Source of the DNA: a virus
Length of the DNA: 25,316 nt
Virus record (IMG/VR): IMGVR_UViG_3300007735_000526
Coordinates: 1 to 25,316 of that record
Strand: one strand, 5' to 3'
Positions 5,687 to 18,149 of this stretch are shown one piece after another; the first letter of the stretch is position 1, and each line of letters opens with the position of its first letter. Below the pieces are notes generated by a model, which made no database searches, was not told the origin of the DNA, and saw only the letters and a list, made by a program, of their open reading frames with translations. Position numbers and translations under genes: made by a program.

Positions 5687-6139
5687 TCAATAAATATATT
5701 CCATGATTGTTATTCCATTTTCTTTTTCTAAATAATGAAATTCTGAATGGCAATTACGGCATAATATTGTACATTTTTTAATTTCATTTTGAATCTTTTC
5801 AATATTATATTTAGAAGCATTTCCTAATTCAAAACTTTTTTCTATAGGGTTTATATGATGAAAATCTAACATATACCATCTAGATTCATTACATTTTTTA
5901 CAAGAACATGTTTTTTTATAATCATTTACAAAATCTCTTCTTTTTTTATTTTGTTTTATTTTATTTAAACGATTTTGTTCTTTTATATATTCTTTATTTT
6001 TTTCTCTCCAATTTTCACAATATTGTTTATCCTTTTCAGGATGTTTTGTTTTATATTTTTTTATTCTATTATTATGTTTTTCTTTATTATTTTGGTAATA
6101 ATTAGTATAATATTTTTTTGTTCCTGATTTTTCTTCCAT
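5687..6139 (-). CDS. HNH endonuclease
   Basis: 150 residues. N-terminal ~75 residues are an extremely basic helix rich in Lys, Asn and Tyr (DNA-binding extension with repeated NKEY/NKEK motifs). The nuclease part has the zinc-finger HNH pattern: SCKKCNES (C-x2-C), MLDFHHINP (catalytic His-His), then a late ILCRNCHSEFH (C-x2-C and final His). Such free-standing HNH enzymes are common homing nucleases of phages. It lies 42 nt downstream of the tmRNA gene and ahead of a strong terminator. Target site unknown; the tmRNA locus is an obvious candidate. Confidence 0.85.
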   Translation of the reverse strand: MEEKSGTKKYYTNYYQNNKEKHNNRIKKYKTKHPEKDKQYCENWREKNKEYIKEQNRLNKIKQNKKRRDFVNDYKKTCSCKKCNESRWYMLDFHHINPIEKSFELGNASKYNIEKIQNEIKKCTILCRNCHSEFHYLEKENGITIMEYIY

Positions 6140-6181
6140 ATTATATTTTATAATAAATATATGGAAGAAAGGGGAACTGTG

Positions 6182-6566
6182 TGGAGCCGGTAGGAATCGA
6201 ACCTACGTCCAAACAATAAGTCTAAATCAACTCATTCACAAGCTTAGTCTCGTTTTCTAACTAGACAAAATATCAGGTTTGATATTAAAGATGAAACCCA
6301 CCTGCAAACAACCTAGAACGATTTGGGTACGGTGTCGTTCTAATACCCTTAAAGCTTCTGTTGCTAGGCACTAAGCATTTAGCCCCGGTTGTTAATTAGG
6401 CAGCTACTGCGTAATCAACACTAACGAAAGACATTGCGTCTTCGAAAGTCCAAGTAGATAATTCTACGTTTGCGTTTGTTGTTTGATAGGTGATTAAGGA
6501 TTTCCAATCTAATCCTGCTTGCATCATTTTTCTCTACTTCGATTGCTGTCAAAACCGGTCGGCCCC
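6182..6566 (-). ncRNA. ssrA: tmRNA (transfer-messenger RNA)
   Basis: Both ends of a tRNA-like domain are seen: 5' GGGGCCGACCGG... pairs with 3' CGGCTCC in a 7-bp acceptor stem (one G-U), with a canonical T-arm (GTAGG TTCGATT CCTAC) and an A discriminator; CCA is not encoded. Between them is a reading frame with resume codon GCA (6473-6471) in an ACGCAAACGTAGAA context similar to E. coli ssrA, ending TAC GCA GTA GCT GCC TAA (stop 6398-6396). The predicted tag has 25 residues, starting ANVELSTW and ending VDYAVAA. Downstream, GGGTA/TACCC and AGAACGA/TCGTTCT interleave as a pseudoknot, as expected for tmRNA. Role: rescues stalled ribosomes with SmpB and marks the product for proteolysis. It follows a 57-aa ORF by only 5 nt. 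Confidence 0.95.
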
Positions 6567-8027: not shown

Positions 8028-8486
8028 TTACTTATACTTTTCTCCAATTTTTGTTATAATATCTTTAGCTTCATTTATATTAATCTTAAAAAACTCACGC
8101 CGGTCATTTACTCTGTACTCATCTAAATATGAATGTATTTCTTTTTCTAAAACCATACCTTCATGACATTTAAATACAAACTCAACTTTATAAGGCAAAG
8201 CCACTCCAGTTGCTCTAGATATTTCTTTTGCTCTTTCTTCTGGAGGAGTAGATGTATAACCAATTTTTATTAGGTCAGGTATAGATTCATTAGATAAAAC
8301 ATATATCCAATATCTTCCCTCACTTTCAATAGATGAAATAAATTTCTTTCTATTAGTATAATATATAACATCTTCCCATCCTTCTTCAATGCTAGGTATT
8401 AATGTATAATATGCTGCCTCCCTACCTAAAATATCATCTTTTGTACTTATATATTCTTGTGCCTCTTCAGGCGTTAAATATTTCAT
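8028..8486 (-). CDS. GIY-YIG superfamily protein (T5orf172-type)
   Basis: 152 residues. From residue ~58: RYWIYVLSNESIPDLIKIGYT followed by PPEERAKEISRATGVALPYKVEFVF and a C-terminal EKEIHSYLDEYRVNDRREFFKI. This is the T5 orf172/MUG113 branch of the GIY-YIG nuclease fold: (W)IYVL...IKIGYT replaces GIY...YIG, R85-like Arg and a late Glu (KEIH) are the catalytic positions. N-terminal ~55 residues are a separate cap. Its ATG is immediately after the 3' end of a tRNA (1 nt), so its mRNA 5' end may be set by tRNA processing. Likely DNA-nicking or homing-related; a regulatory DNA-binding role is also known for this branch. Confidence 0.8.
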   Translation of the reverse strand: MKYLTPEEAQEYISTKDDILGREAAYYTLIPSIEEGWEDVIYYTNRKKFISSIESEGRYWIYVLSNESIPDLIKIGYTSTPPEERAKEISRATGVALPYKVEFVFKCHEGMVLEKEIHSYLDEYRVNDRREFFKININEAKDIITKIGEKYK

Positions 8487-13136: not shown

Positions 13137-13279
13137 TAGTCAGGACAGGGTTCGAACCTGTATAACCTATAATAGTTGGTGTAAGTTATTTAATCCATTA
13201 GATAAGGTAATCAATCCACTAACCAACATTGACAATCCCTCTCTTCTAACTTCTGCGTTTACCATTCCGCCACCTGACC
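13137..13279 (-). ncRNA. tRNA-like RNA D
   Basis: 143 nt. Acceptor GGTCAGG/CCTGACT (the first pair is G-U where the other copies have A-U), D-arm GCG-GAATGGTAAA-CGC, T-arm ACAGG-TTCGAAC-CCTGT. The inner region is unrelated in sequence to B/C but repeats their topology: variable-arm helix ATAACTT (13189-13183) / AGGTTAT (13168-13162), whose loop ACCAAC (13180-13175) pairs with upstream GTTGGT (13227-13222). No standard anticodon arm found. Discriminator A. Confidence 0.7.
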
Positions 13280-14081: not shown

Positions 14082-14186
14082 TAGTCAGGACAGGATTCGA
14101 ACCTGTAAAGTACCCTTGTTCAATTTTTTAAGGAGGGGCACTATCTAATCTGGAACAATAGCGTTTACCAATTCCGCCACCTGACT
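14082..14186 (-). ncRNA. tRNA-like RNA E (compact pseudoknot form)
   Basis: 105 nt, the shortest member. Acceptor AGTCAGG/CCTGACT, D-arm GCG-GAATTGGTAAA-CGC, T-arm ACAGG-TTCGAAT-CCTGT. Hairpin CTAT/ATAG stands in for the anticodon arm; its loop TTGTTC (14158-14153) pairs with GAACAA (14121-14116), directly followed by GGGTAC (14115-14110), which pairs with GTGCCC (14141-14136). Two 6-bp helices thus stack coaxially in an H-type pseudoknot. No 7-nt loop with U33 and anticodon. Discriminator A, no CCA. Confidence 0.75.
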
Positions 14187-16116: not shown

Positions 16117-16161
16117 TGTTGTTTAAAAGTTTCGTTTATTTAGATGTTATACGCAAATTTT

Positions 16162-16569
16162 TTAACCATCAACAGCCGTCAATGTTCTACCAAAACATTT
16201 AACCTTTTGCCCATCTTTAAAATGACTTGCTTTTTCTAAAAGTTCGTTCATAATATCATTGATGTTAAAATGGTGCGAGAAACCCATTTCAATTTCATAG
16301 TTGCCATTTCTGTCAATTTCACAACCCATTGCTTTTTCTACGCTTTCTGTCAGCAATTCTTTGTAAAAGTCCGTATCAATATTCATATCCTTCACAAGAA
16401 TATGGGTTGTGAATTTTCGGCTTTGGATTCCACACATTGACACTTCTGATGGGTTTCCATTCCCTAATTGAAATTGTCCAAACATAAGCAAGTCATTATC
16501 ATCGCACCAGTGGTAATCAGTAGGTGAAATGTTCCCTTTTTCTCTTTTTTCTGCTACAAATACTTTCAT
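16162..16569 (-). CDS. cassette-borne hypothetical protein
   Basis: 135 residues, MKVFVAEKREKGNISPTDYH with WCDDNDLLMFGQFQLGNG and an acidic helical C-terminal half; one Cys-Gly motif (KVKCFGRTLTAVDG). No family recognised. The gene is flanked by 23-nt inverted repeats (TTATACGC.. at 16605 and ..GCGTATAA ending at 16147) that match in 21 positions, i.e. one cassette unit of the attC-like array. Base composition is more GC-rich than the surrounding phage genes, suggesting foreign origin. Confidence 0.7.
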   Translation of the reverse strand: MKVFVAEKREKGNISPTDYHWCDDNDLLMFGQFQLGNGNPSEVSMCGIQSRKFTTHILVKDMNIDTDFYKELLTESVEKAMGCEIDRNGNYEIEMGFSHHFNINDIMNELLEKASHFKDGQKVKCFGRTLTAVDG

Positions 16570-16599
16570 TTTGTTTATTTAAATGGTTAAAAAATCAGC

Positions 16600-16654
16600 G
16601 TATAACAGCACCTATGCGCCATTAAAACGAGCGCATAGCTGCAAAACGTTAGGT
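16600..16654 (-). repeat. attC-like recombination site 1
   Basis: Minus strand order: R'' ACCTAAC (16654-16648), spacer GTTTT, L'' GCAGCTATGCGC (16642-16631), 11-nt loop, L' GCGCATAGGTGC (16619-16608), T, R' GTTATAC (16606-16600). L'' and L' pair at 11 of 12 positions. This is the architecture of an integron attC site, with RYYYAAC at one end and a GTT-box at the other. Confidence 0.6.
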
Positions 16655-16660
16655 GCAATG

Positions 16661-16837
16661 CTAATCCAATACACCTGCAAGCCAAATTGGACAAAATATT
16701 AACCAGTACAAAAATCGTTCTTGTAAACTGACAGCCAAATTGTCTTTCCCTATTTTCTTACAATCGTTCCTCCAAATCAGATAGAACGGTATAAAAAGAA
16801 CGATTTGCAATAACAAGCATATTAATATTTTATTCAT
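16661..16837 (-). CDS. cassette-borne two-TM protein
   Basis: 58 residues from the ATG at 16837 (MNKILICLLLQIVLFIPFYL), a basic loop WRNDCKKIGKDN and a second hydrophobic segment (FLYWLIFCPIWLAGV). The longer in-frame start at 16873 lies inside the cassette end sequence and is rejected. Flanked by inverted repeats GTTAGGTGCAATGCT (16648-) and AGCACTGCACCTAAC (to 16871). Its stop lies only 7 nt from the R'' box of attC-like site 1, the usual economy of integron cassettes. Confidence 0.65.
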   Translation of the reverse strand: MNKILICLLLQIVLFIPFYLIWRNDCKKIGKDNLAVSLQERFLYWLIFCPIWLAGVLD

Positions 16838-16948
16838 CTTTTCAATTTTTGTGAGAAGCACTGCACCTAACAAGGTATTGCTAAAAGCAGGGCATTCTTT
16901 GTTAATTACTCTTTTACAGTTAATAGTTTAGTTTCGTTTATTTAGATG

Positions 16949-17152
16949 TTAGCGGAAATGCTTTGCACACTCTTCTGTAACAATTTTTAATGAGTTCAAA
17001 TATCCATCATACAATCCTCTATCATATAATCCAGCATCATCTTCATCAGGAAATAATTTAAGCCTTTCTTGTAGCTTGGAAATAAGCACTTCCGCTAACA
17101 AGCGGTTAGCGTCATTGCCGTTTTCGTGGTTTATTGAAGTTTTATTTTCCAT
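16949..17152 (-). CDS. fusion ORF crossing a cassette junction
   Basis: 67 residues from the ATG at 17152 (MENKTSINHENGNDANRLLA...). The first 17 codons lie inside attC-like site 3 of the preceding cassette; the frame then passes its G/TTAGCGG junction (17099/17098) into the next cassette and ends KIVTEECAKHFR, 3 nt from the R'' box GCTAAC of that cassette. The cassette part alone (LISKLQERLKLFPDEDDAGL...) has no good start, so translation may depend on the upstream cassette. A longer ORF to 17275 exists but would run through the whole preceding site. Function unknown; helical and acidic. Confidence 0.5.
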   Translation of the reverse strand: MENKTSINHENGNDANRLLAEVLISKLQERLKLFPDEDDAGLYDRGLYDGYLNSLKIVTEECAKHFR

Positions 17153-17227
17153 ATCAAAATTTGTTTTTAAGTTAAAGTTTTGTGTTCCAAAGTCGGCAAC
17201 GAACGCCAACCGCCCTACCGTTATCGG
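17093..17227 (-). repeat. attC-like recombination site 3, long spacer
   Basis: Minus strand: R'' CCGATAAC (17227-17220), spacer GGTAG, L'' of 21 nt (17214-17194, starts GGCGGTTGGCG), ~73-nt variable region, L' of 19 nt (17120-17102, ends CGCTAACCGC), TT, R' GTTAGCGG (17099-17092). L'' and L' are complementary with few mismatches. The variable region contains the ATG of the fusion ORF. Confidence 0.55.
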
Positions 17228-17231
17228 AAAT

Positions 17232-17519
17232 TCATTTTTCTCCCACTGCACTAAGACGGTCAAGTTCAGCAGCAATCAAAGCACCTGCAATTATCAATCG
17301 TTGCTTGTAAGGCTTTGAAATCATTTTATCCCAAATCTGTTCATCCCAATTCATAGGAGCTGTGTAGTTTGGAATGTCGAGTTCAGGCACACAAAGCCTT
17401 TCTACTGCAAATGCTAATTGACAACTTGAATTATATTCAATATCTAATTCCGTTGTTCTGCCGTGTTTTAGGATTTGTTCCTCACGTTCTTTTTTGATTA
17501 ATTCAATTCCTGTTTCCAT
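17232..17519 (-). CDS. cassette-borne conserved hypothetical protein
   Basis: 95 residues: METGIELIKKEREEQILKHG, then TTELDIEYN, PMNWDEQIWDKM and the C-terminal RLIIAGALIAAELDRLSA. The pattern (I/LIxxER.EQ...HG...W...W...K....L..AGALIAAE.DRL) is that of a widespread small phage/bacterial hypothetical family. All-helical, probably dimeric. ATG lies 48 nt into the cassette (after G/TTATCGG at 17568/17567); the stop is 4 nt from the R'' box of site 3. Function not known. Confidence 0.7.
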   Translation of the reverse strand: METGIELIKKEREEQILKHGRTTELDIEYNSSCQLAFAVERLCVPELDIPNYTAPMNWDEQIWDKMISKPYKQRLIIAGALIAAELDRLSAVGEK

Positions 17520-17560
17520 TTTAAAATTTGTTTATTGCCCACCCACGAAAAATGAACTAT

Positions 17561-17658
17561 CCGATAACACGGGTTTGGCGTAATGCCACAGATAGTTTGT
17601 GCCAAAAATTAAAGTTCGTGCAAGGTGGCACTAACGCCAAGCCCGAAATCGTTAGCAG
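17561..17658 (-). repeat. attC-like recombination site 2
   Basis: Minus strand: R'' CTGCTAAC (17658-17651), spacer GATTT, L'' of 21 nt (17645-17625, CGGGCTTGGCG...), 35-nt variable region, L' of 20 nt (17589-17570, ...CGCCAAACCCG), T, R' GTTATCGG (17568-17561). The L arms pair over ~18 positions. Same order and spacer lengths as sites 1 and 3. Confidence 0.6.
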
Positions 17659-17665
17659 TAATAAG

Positions 17666-17887
17666 CTAATTGTCGTAAAGTTTTAGCCATTCTTGCGAAT
17701 CTTCTCTTAACCCTTTTAGCGTTTGCTTTTCTATTGAATTAACTATTTTATTGTACATTTCTACTGCTCCAGCTTGGTAAGCATTCAATAAGTCAGTTGT
17801 ACAAAACCGCTTACTACTGCTAACATCGGCTATTAAATCATTGCCGTAATTATGTTTATTCATAGCTTCGTAATCTCTATCATCCAT
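17666..17887 (-). CDS. hypothetical protein fused across cassette boundary
   Basis: 73 residues, MDDRDYEAMNKHNYGNDLIA then VSSSKRFCTTDLLNAYQAGA and a helical, acidic tail. The first ~22 codons come from phage DNA behind promoter module 4; the reading frame then enters the cassette at GATG/TTAGCAG (17824/17823). The stop is 8 nt from R'' of attC-like site 2. The cassette end repeats GTTAGCAGTAATAAGC/GCTTACTACTGCTAAC flank the cassette part. Function unknown. Confidence 0.6.
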   Translation of the reverse strand: MDDRDYEAMNKHNYGNDLIADVSSSKRFCTTDLLNAYQAGAVEMYNKIVNSIEKQTLKGLREDSQEWLKLYDN

Positions 17888-17909
17888 TGTTTTTTATTTT
17901 TTATTTACC

Positions 17910-17941
17910 TAAAGATACGAATCGTGTTCCGCTTAGCCAAA
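17910..17941 (-). promoter_or_regulatory. promoter module copy 4, drives the cassette array
   Basis: -33 TTTG (17941-17938), 20-nt spacer, -7 TATCTTTA (17917-17910). It stands upstream of the first cassette, in the place a cassette promoter would hold. Confidence 0.8.
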
Positions 17942-17948
17942 CTAGTTT

Positions 17949-18098
17949 TTAACGGTCTTTTAAACGTTTAAAAACATCAATGTTTGCCATGATCTTTTTC
18001 CTTAAAGAAATAGATTTCTCATCCAAGAATTTCAAATATTCTTTCTCACTTTTGAAACCCATTTTTTTCCAATCCATTTTACTTACTTTCTTTTTCAT
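17949..18098 (-). CDS. small basic helical protein
   Basis: 49 residues: MKKKVSKMDWKKMGFKSEKE, then YLKFLDEKSISLRKKIMANI and DVFKRLKDR. Highly basic helix, possibly nucleic-acid binding. The ATG is 4 nt downstream of the -7 box of its promoter (18102-18133), implying a leaderless mRNA unless translation starts at Met8. Confidence 0.6.
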   Translation of the reverse strand: MKKKVSKMDWKKMGFKSEKEYLKFLDEKSISLRKKIMANIDVFKRLKDR

Positions 18099-18101
18099 AA
18101 C

Positions 18102-18133
18102 TAAAGATACGAATCGTGTTCCGCTTAGCCAAA
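18102..18133 (-). promoter_or_regulatory. Bacteroidetes-type promoter
   Basis: -33 TTTG (18133-18130), 20-nt spacer, -7 TATCTTTA (18109-18102). Confidence 0.8.
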
Positions 18134-18149
18134 CTTGTTTCCCGAGCAG

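Follow-up and report, generated by a model that had tools for sequence, protein, structure and literature searches.

In classical integrons a gene cassette carries its attC stem after its gene, the crossover takes place at G^TT, and whole cassettes are gained or lost next to attI. Clusters of attC cassettes without an integrase (CALINs) have also been described in phages. Qi et al. (2023) listed 17 phage CALINs, some of them in virulent phages and one in Polaribacter phage P12002L, read their sites as ordinary integron attCs, and ascribed divergent directions to mosaicism; for the virulent phages, no recombinase linked to the arrays was reported (PMC9892861). Two further results concern the strand and the enzyme. 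Bouvier et al. (2009) found that attC sites with inverted extrahelical bases undergo top-strand recombination with the crossover in the R'' box (PMC2727003), and the IntI-specific patch has been credited with the move to recombination of single-stranded DNA (PMC7790495).

Here we analysed a viral record of 25,316 bp (IMGVR_UViG_3300007735_000526; hereafter the window), which very probably carries two short integron-like cassette arrays of phage location and reversed polarity that would be mobilised by a tyrosine recombinase. Families of head maturation protease and ssDNA-binding protein mark the window as phage DNA, five related contigs of 131-174 kb carry a terminase, and the host is probably a member of the Bacteroidota. 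A sequence-only reading of the window had proposed five units with inverted GTTA/TAAC ends, and indeed five such one-gene units are found at 16128-17856 (Table 1), with shuffling in their support: the window holds four strong units, whereas 200 dinucleotide shuffles averaged 0.58 and never exceeded 3. A first unit scan across all loci was too permissive and returned many chance stems. All cassette genes lie on the minus strand, and the array is richer in GC (35.6%) than its flanks (29.1 and 28.1%), as had been claimed. Stems at the three complete junctions were reached by 0, 0 and 1 of 200 shuffles, and exactly these junctions, which the same reading had called attC-type, were matched on the minus strand only by a leave-out covariance model of 38 sites, none of them from the window, with E-values, to be taken as rough, of 5e-11 to 3e-8. 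The proposed 5-nt spacers were present on one side of each site, while the other side has 0-1 nt, making the spacers asymmetric. Three attC sites, where a CALIN takes at least two, and no integrase in view give a CALIN-type array as suggested, judged by our own model rather than by IntegronFinder. Comparison of the array DNA with annotated phages gave no match, and no Rfam family matched the attC sites.

Table 1. Cassettes, recombination sites and attI-like sequences of the two arrays in the window.
Feature	Position	Strand	Details
attI-like end of array 1	16128..16145	+	AGTTTCGTTTATTTAGAT, then G^TTA; no adjoining recombinase gene
Cassette 1	16146..16606	-	Inverted 25-nt arms, 92% complementary; gene 16162-16569, 135 aa, DUF7715
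attC, cassettes 1/2	16599..16655	-	48.4 bits, E 4.6e-11, leave-out model
Cassette 2	16648..16871	-	15-nt arms, 93% complementary; small membrane-protein-like ORF 16661-16873; common to L099
Truncated attC half, far end of array 1	16872..16929	-	No stem above shuffles
Second attI-like copy, start of array 2	16930..16947	+	AGTTTCGTTTATTTAGAT; 22-nt exact repeat with 16128-16149
Cassette 3	16948..17099	-	Inverted ends 15/16; gene at about 17158-16949, with its start codon in attC
attC, cassettes 3/4	17092..17227	-	37.8 bits, E 3.3e-8, leave-out model
Cassette 4	17220..17568	-	Inverted ends; gene 17232-17519, 95 aa, many-phage family
attC, cassettes 4/5	17561..17658	-	43.9 bits, E 7.6e-10, leave-out model
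Cassette 5	17651..17824	-	16-nt arms, 94% complementary; ORF 17666-17887, start codon in attC remnant
Half-attC remnant (one stem arm + T-GTTA), far end of array 2	17825..17856	-	Read directly from sequence

The product of cassette 1 belongs to Pfam family DUF7715 (E 8.8e-11), and relatives of the cassette 4 protein occur in 41 viral contigs. At the far end of array 2 the covariance model gave a weak partial match (17817-17856, 8.3 bits). The cassette 3 ORF, MENKTSINHENGNDANRLL, has a reading frame that runs through the attC arm and box. Start codons inside attC are frequent among inverted cassettes (about 18 of 95 sites; for example window 16948-17158 and L240:14016-14312), and the first residues of such proteins are therefore encoded by the hairpin arm and box. 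Several other features lie elsewhere in the window. A tmRNA and tRNAs (6179-6566, 5687-6139 and 8028-8486) are encoded beside HNH-like and homing-endonuclease-like genes, Rfam tRNA matches at 13137-13279 and 14082-14186 span 143 and 105 nt of DNA where the model has 71 nt, as though inserts were present in these tRNA genes, and a 50-nt repeat of 90% identity (17899-17948 and 18091-18140, 192 nt apart) is located upstream of short phage genes.

Although the five units are real, they do not form the single array that had been described. The junction at 16872-16946 is not an attC site and consists of an attC half and then AGTTTCGTTTATTTAGAT, the 18-nt sequence also found at 16128-16145, and there are therefore two arrays, comprising cassettes 1-2 and cassettes 3-5. 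The 126-kb phage contig L099, which is related to the window over 21.3-22.4 kb, confirms the cassette boundaries: 16146-16934, including cassette 1, is common to both at 99.9% identity, a box marks the exact point at which the homology stops, and L099 has an extra cassette here, with a 59-aa gene and a stem of its own, between cassette 1 and an attI-like end identical to AGTTTCGTTTATTTAGAT. The half-attC sequence at 16872-16929 also precedes cassette 2 in L099. The sister model R1 located one more attC in the L099 phage (L169:14237-14363); apart from the window and G001, it matched nothing in some 716 kb of further phage DNA, and a scan with the 20-nt attI-like end matched only the known relative. 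Each gene is flanked by inverted ends of 12-25 nt, as hairpin-ended transposons or MITEs would also display, yet it is scarcely credible that the units are such elements rather than site-specific cassettes, and we rejected this reading: no target duplications were seen, the units adjoin one another head to tail and are separated by attC stems, a single attI-like sequence serves as the point of insertion, and in relatives a tyrosine recombinase is adjacent.

The family to which the attC sites belong is represented in dozens of viral contigs as well as in genomes of Bacteroidota, most contigs in the comparison being metagenomic. A phylum scan, in which 13 candidates were scored per genome, gave at least 14 of 395. 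Fifty-two non-redundant sites share the geometry TAAC-Gnnnn-20-bp stem-T-GTTA, and G9, T40, A48 and T54 are nearly invariant though the search did not require them. In an independent set of 130 sites, chosen without the model, these four bases occurred 118, 119, 122 and 122 times, respectively. The sites of the model were picked for good stems, and their covariation is therefore partly selected. As in classical integrons and CALINs, the attC is a hairpin that is bounded by two outer boxes, has unpaired spacers and keeps one conserved base fixed in one of its arms, and there is one gene per cassette, a head-to-tail order and a new cassette beside attI.

Unlike in classical integrons, the genes are inverted relative to their sites, as judged from sequence comparison: the stem lies 5' of the gene and travels with this downstream gene, the crossover (TAA^C) falls in the box that follows the gene, and the genes face attI. 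Moreover, the ends of the phage cassettes pair over about 15 nt. Several observations point to this polarity. The attC stem is linked to the downstream box, a linkage that overturned an interpretation of the locus as a canonical array in gene orientation. Homology blocks ended 53 times on the TAAC side and 5 times on the GTT side (pairs counted both ways), the first set of ends having given 11 and 1. In recombinase-bearing phages every callable cassette (94/94) had its gene on the model strand. Fold energies favour the gene strand at 114 of 115 sites, aided by a G.T at arm position 11 that is present in 92 of the 115. Conversely, two attC sites of class 1 integrons fit the model better opposite their gene (11.3 vs 3.6 and 10.3 vs 5.5 bits); the first 20 kb of R751 had no integron annotated and was unusable as a control. 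In the window itself the genes neither end at their own attC nor read away from attI. Homology blocks between loci break on the TAAC side rather than at the G^TT that, read in gene orientation, belongs to the R' box. P12002L, with five model matches that are all on its gene strand, appears to be of the same inverted type. These phage sites are a natural counterpart of the state engineered by Bouvier et al. (2009), whose sites were laboratory mutants without a recombinase of their own.

Chromosomal arrays of the Bacteroidota with the same site family have classical polarity, with the downstream gene on the opposite strand at 27 of 28 sites, and in Dyadobacter psychrotolerans such an array lies beside a 361-aa recombinase. 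Integron-like loci of this kind, with the same attC family and classical polarity, were observed in Bacteroidota chromosomes at L185:462-4957, L267:6521-15137, L273:8371-12750 and L277:7278-11553. The recombinase at these four loci is larger (355-497 aa), lacks the patch and reads towards the array.

No tyrosine recombinase was found in the window, in agreement with the earlier reading, or in the 126-kb L099 contig and 32 further relatives, suggesting that the arrays are either filled in trans, by an enzyme of the host or of a co-infecting phage, or are leftovers, the enzyme having been lost. Other phages do carry one. In phages L101 and L103, and at the Bacteroidales MAG locus L240, a tyrosine recombinase of 266-274 aa is located at the attI end of the array. 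These enzymes most closely resemble XerA (4a8e and 5hxy) and have no IntI patch (about 45 residues); unlike XerA, they sit beside attI and cassette arrays. Recombinases beside such arrays score below the TIGR02249 cut-off, and in a small tree, to be read with long-branch caveats, the patch-less recombinases group with IntI1 and not with Xer. In viral contigs there are 74 relatives of the L240 enzyme, some on contigs that are 310-465 kb in length and contain a terminase, and the 183 attC matches around these relatives are all upstream and all on the recombinase strand. At least one attC match was present in 54 of the 63 loci with enough sequence, and 340 kb downstream of L240-type recombinase genes contained no attC match. 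Just upstream of the recombinase gene an attI motif, AAC-TA.TATAT, was found at 49 of 52 loci as compared to 55 of 914 background stretches. A search of viral contigs with the L103 recombinase returned only itself. The window, whose attI-like sequence differs from this motif, has two attI-like copies without a recombinase, whereas in relatives attI is about 50 nt upstream of the recombinase gene. DUF7715 cassettes are present in L101 and L103 as well as in the window, which fits exchange. The likely recombinase is the XerA/IntI-like enzyme that adjoins arrays in cultured Polaribacter phages and in more than 50 phage contigs of up to 465 kb. Separately, several contigs of G009, the genome of L212, contain many short fragments, some of them with stops, that match the integron-integrase model at its C-terminal end only.

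These enzymes also bear on whether the window simply holds an ordinary CALIN, that is, a piece of classical array with genes in the usual orientation that was moved in by a host IntI. Its attC architecture is integron-like, phage CALINs are known, and in a published assay IntI1 recombined 5 of 6 of their sites (PMC9892861), but we consider such an origin improbable in view of the four lines of evidence for inverted polarity, the lack of the IntI patch in enzymes beside such arrays, and the result that none of the 10 host genomes bearing the attC family had a TIGR02249 match over the IntI cut-off.

Cultured North Sea phages, which carry related integrases, provide a direct view of cassette differences at one position. 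Polaribacter phage Freya_1 has an empty site, TTTACAAC/ACCCCTATAAC (also given as TTTACAAC/ACCCC), 49 nt before its integrase, and inserts lie exactly at this site in Freya_6 (2216 bp) and Freya_10 (4942 bp), such that isolates of one cultured phage have 0, 2.2 and 4.9 kb of cassettes at one site. Freya_6 and Freya_10 share their far cassettes at 99.9% and diverge directly after TTACCAAC. The attC covariance model did not detect the Freya sites, suggesting that they form a divergent subtype. The authors who described these phages read the integrase as indicating a temperate life style and made no mention of integrons (PMC8776804). The boundaries of the cassettes, their polarity, their gain next to attI and the recombinase linkage in relatives are established at the level of sequence.

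It might nonetheless be argued that homologous recombination between phages alone has shaped these loci and that the sites are relics on which no recombinase now acts. The window and its clade have no recombinase, each window array has decayed to a half site at its far end, and the 22-bp repeats could recombine. Even so, this seems unlikely to us, as the window and L099 differ by one whole cassette cut at boxes, and homology leaves unexplained why Freya phages gain cassettes exactly at an empty attI beside a recombinase.

We instead favour site-specific movement of cassettes with reversed polarity. Each cassette comprises, in order, an attC stem, a box, a gene and a box. It would probably leave and enter an array in circular form, through the action of a tyrosine recombinase whose recognition target is the gene strand of attC when folded. 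Strand exchange at TAA^C, the complement of G^TTA, would place the new cassette beside the attI-like site. Because the stem travels 5' of the gene, the genes point towards attI, the reverse of classical integrons, and are co-directional with the surrounding phage genes. We infer that the linked recombinase, encoded in related phages by the patch-less XerA/IntI-like gene about 50 nt downstream of attI, carries out these steps, that its DNA substrate is a folded single strand, and that the enzyme acts in trans on the window phage. More broadly, it is reasonably probable that Bacteroidota phages possess an integron-like platform of their own, in which a patch-less recombinase inserts reversed-polarity cassettes at an attI in its 5' region.

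The sequence-only reading was supported in part, namely in its claim of integron-like cassette arrays without an integrase in a phage genome; it missed the inverted polarity, the two arrays each with an attI-like end, and the recombinase beside the arrays of relatives. Its suggestion that cassettes in a lytic-type phage would be new does not stand, since Qi et al. (2023) had already described CALINs of virulent phages (PMC9892861), with which the window shares attC cassette clusters and the lack of an integrase. An IntI with its specific patch was found neither in the window or its clade nor among the array-linked recombinases. The system of the window works like an integron, but is not one by the IntI-based definition, failing on both IntI and orientation. 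The full texts searched, subscription papers and preprints aside, contained no inverted-polarity cassettes, attC-linked patch-less recombinases or phage-encoded platforms, and within this literature the inverted polarity, the patch-less linked recombinase and the Freya cassette differences at one site appear to be new.

If these conclusions are true, the IntI patch would be dispensable for recombination at hairpin attC sites. Possession of an integrase gene has been taken to mark a phage as temperate (PMC8776804); the 'lysogeny integrases' annotated in such phages may instead be cassette recombinases, a warning that an integrase gene in a phage may mean something other than a temperate life style. 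The cultured Polaribacter phages, with both empty and filled sites, make the system directly testable. Finally, integron-like gene capture would extend to phage-encoded systems, including those on contigs of 310-465 kb with a terminase.
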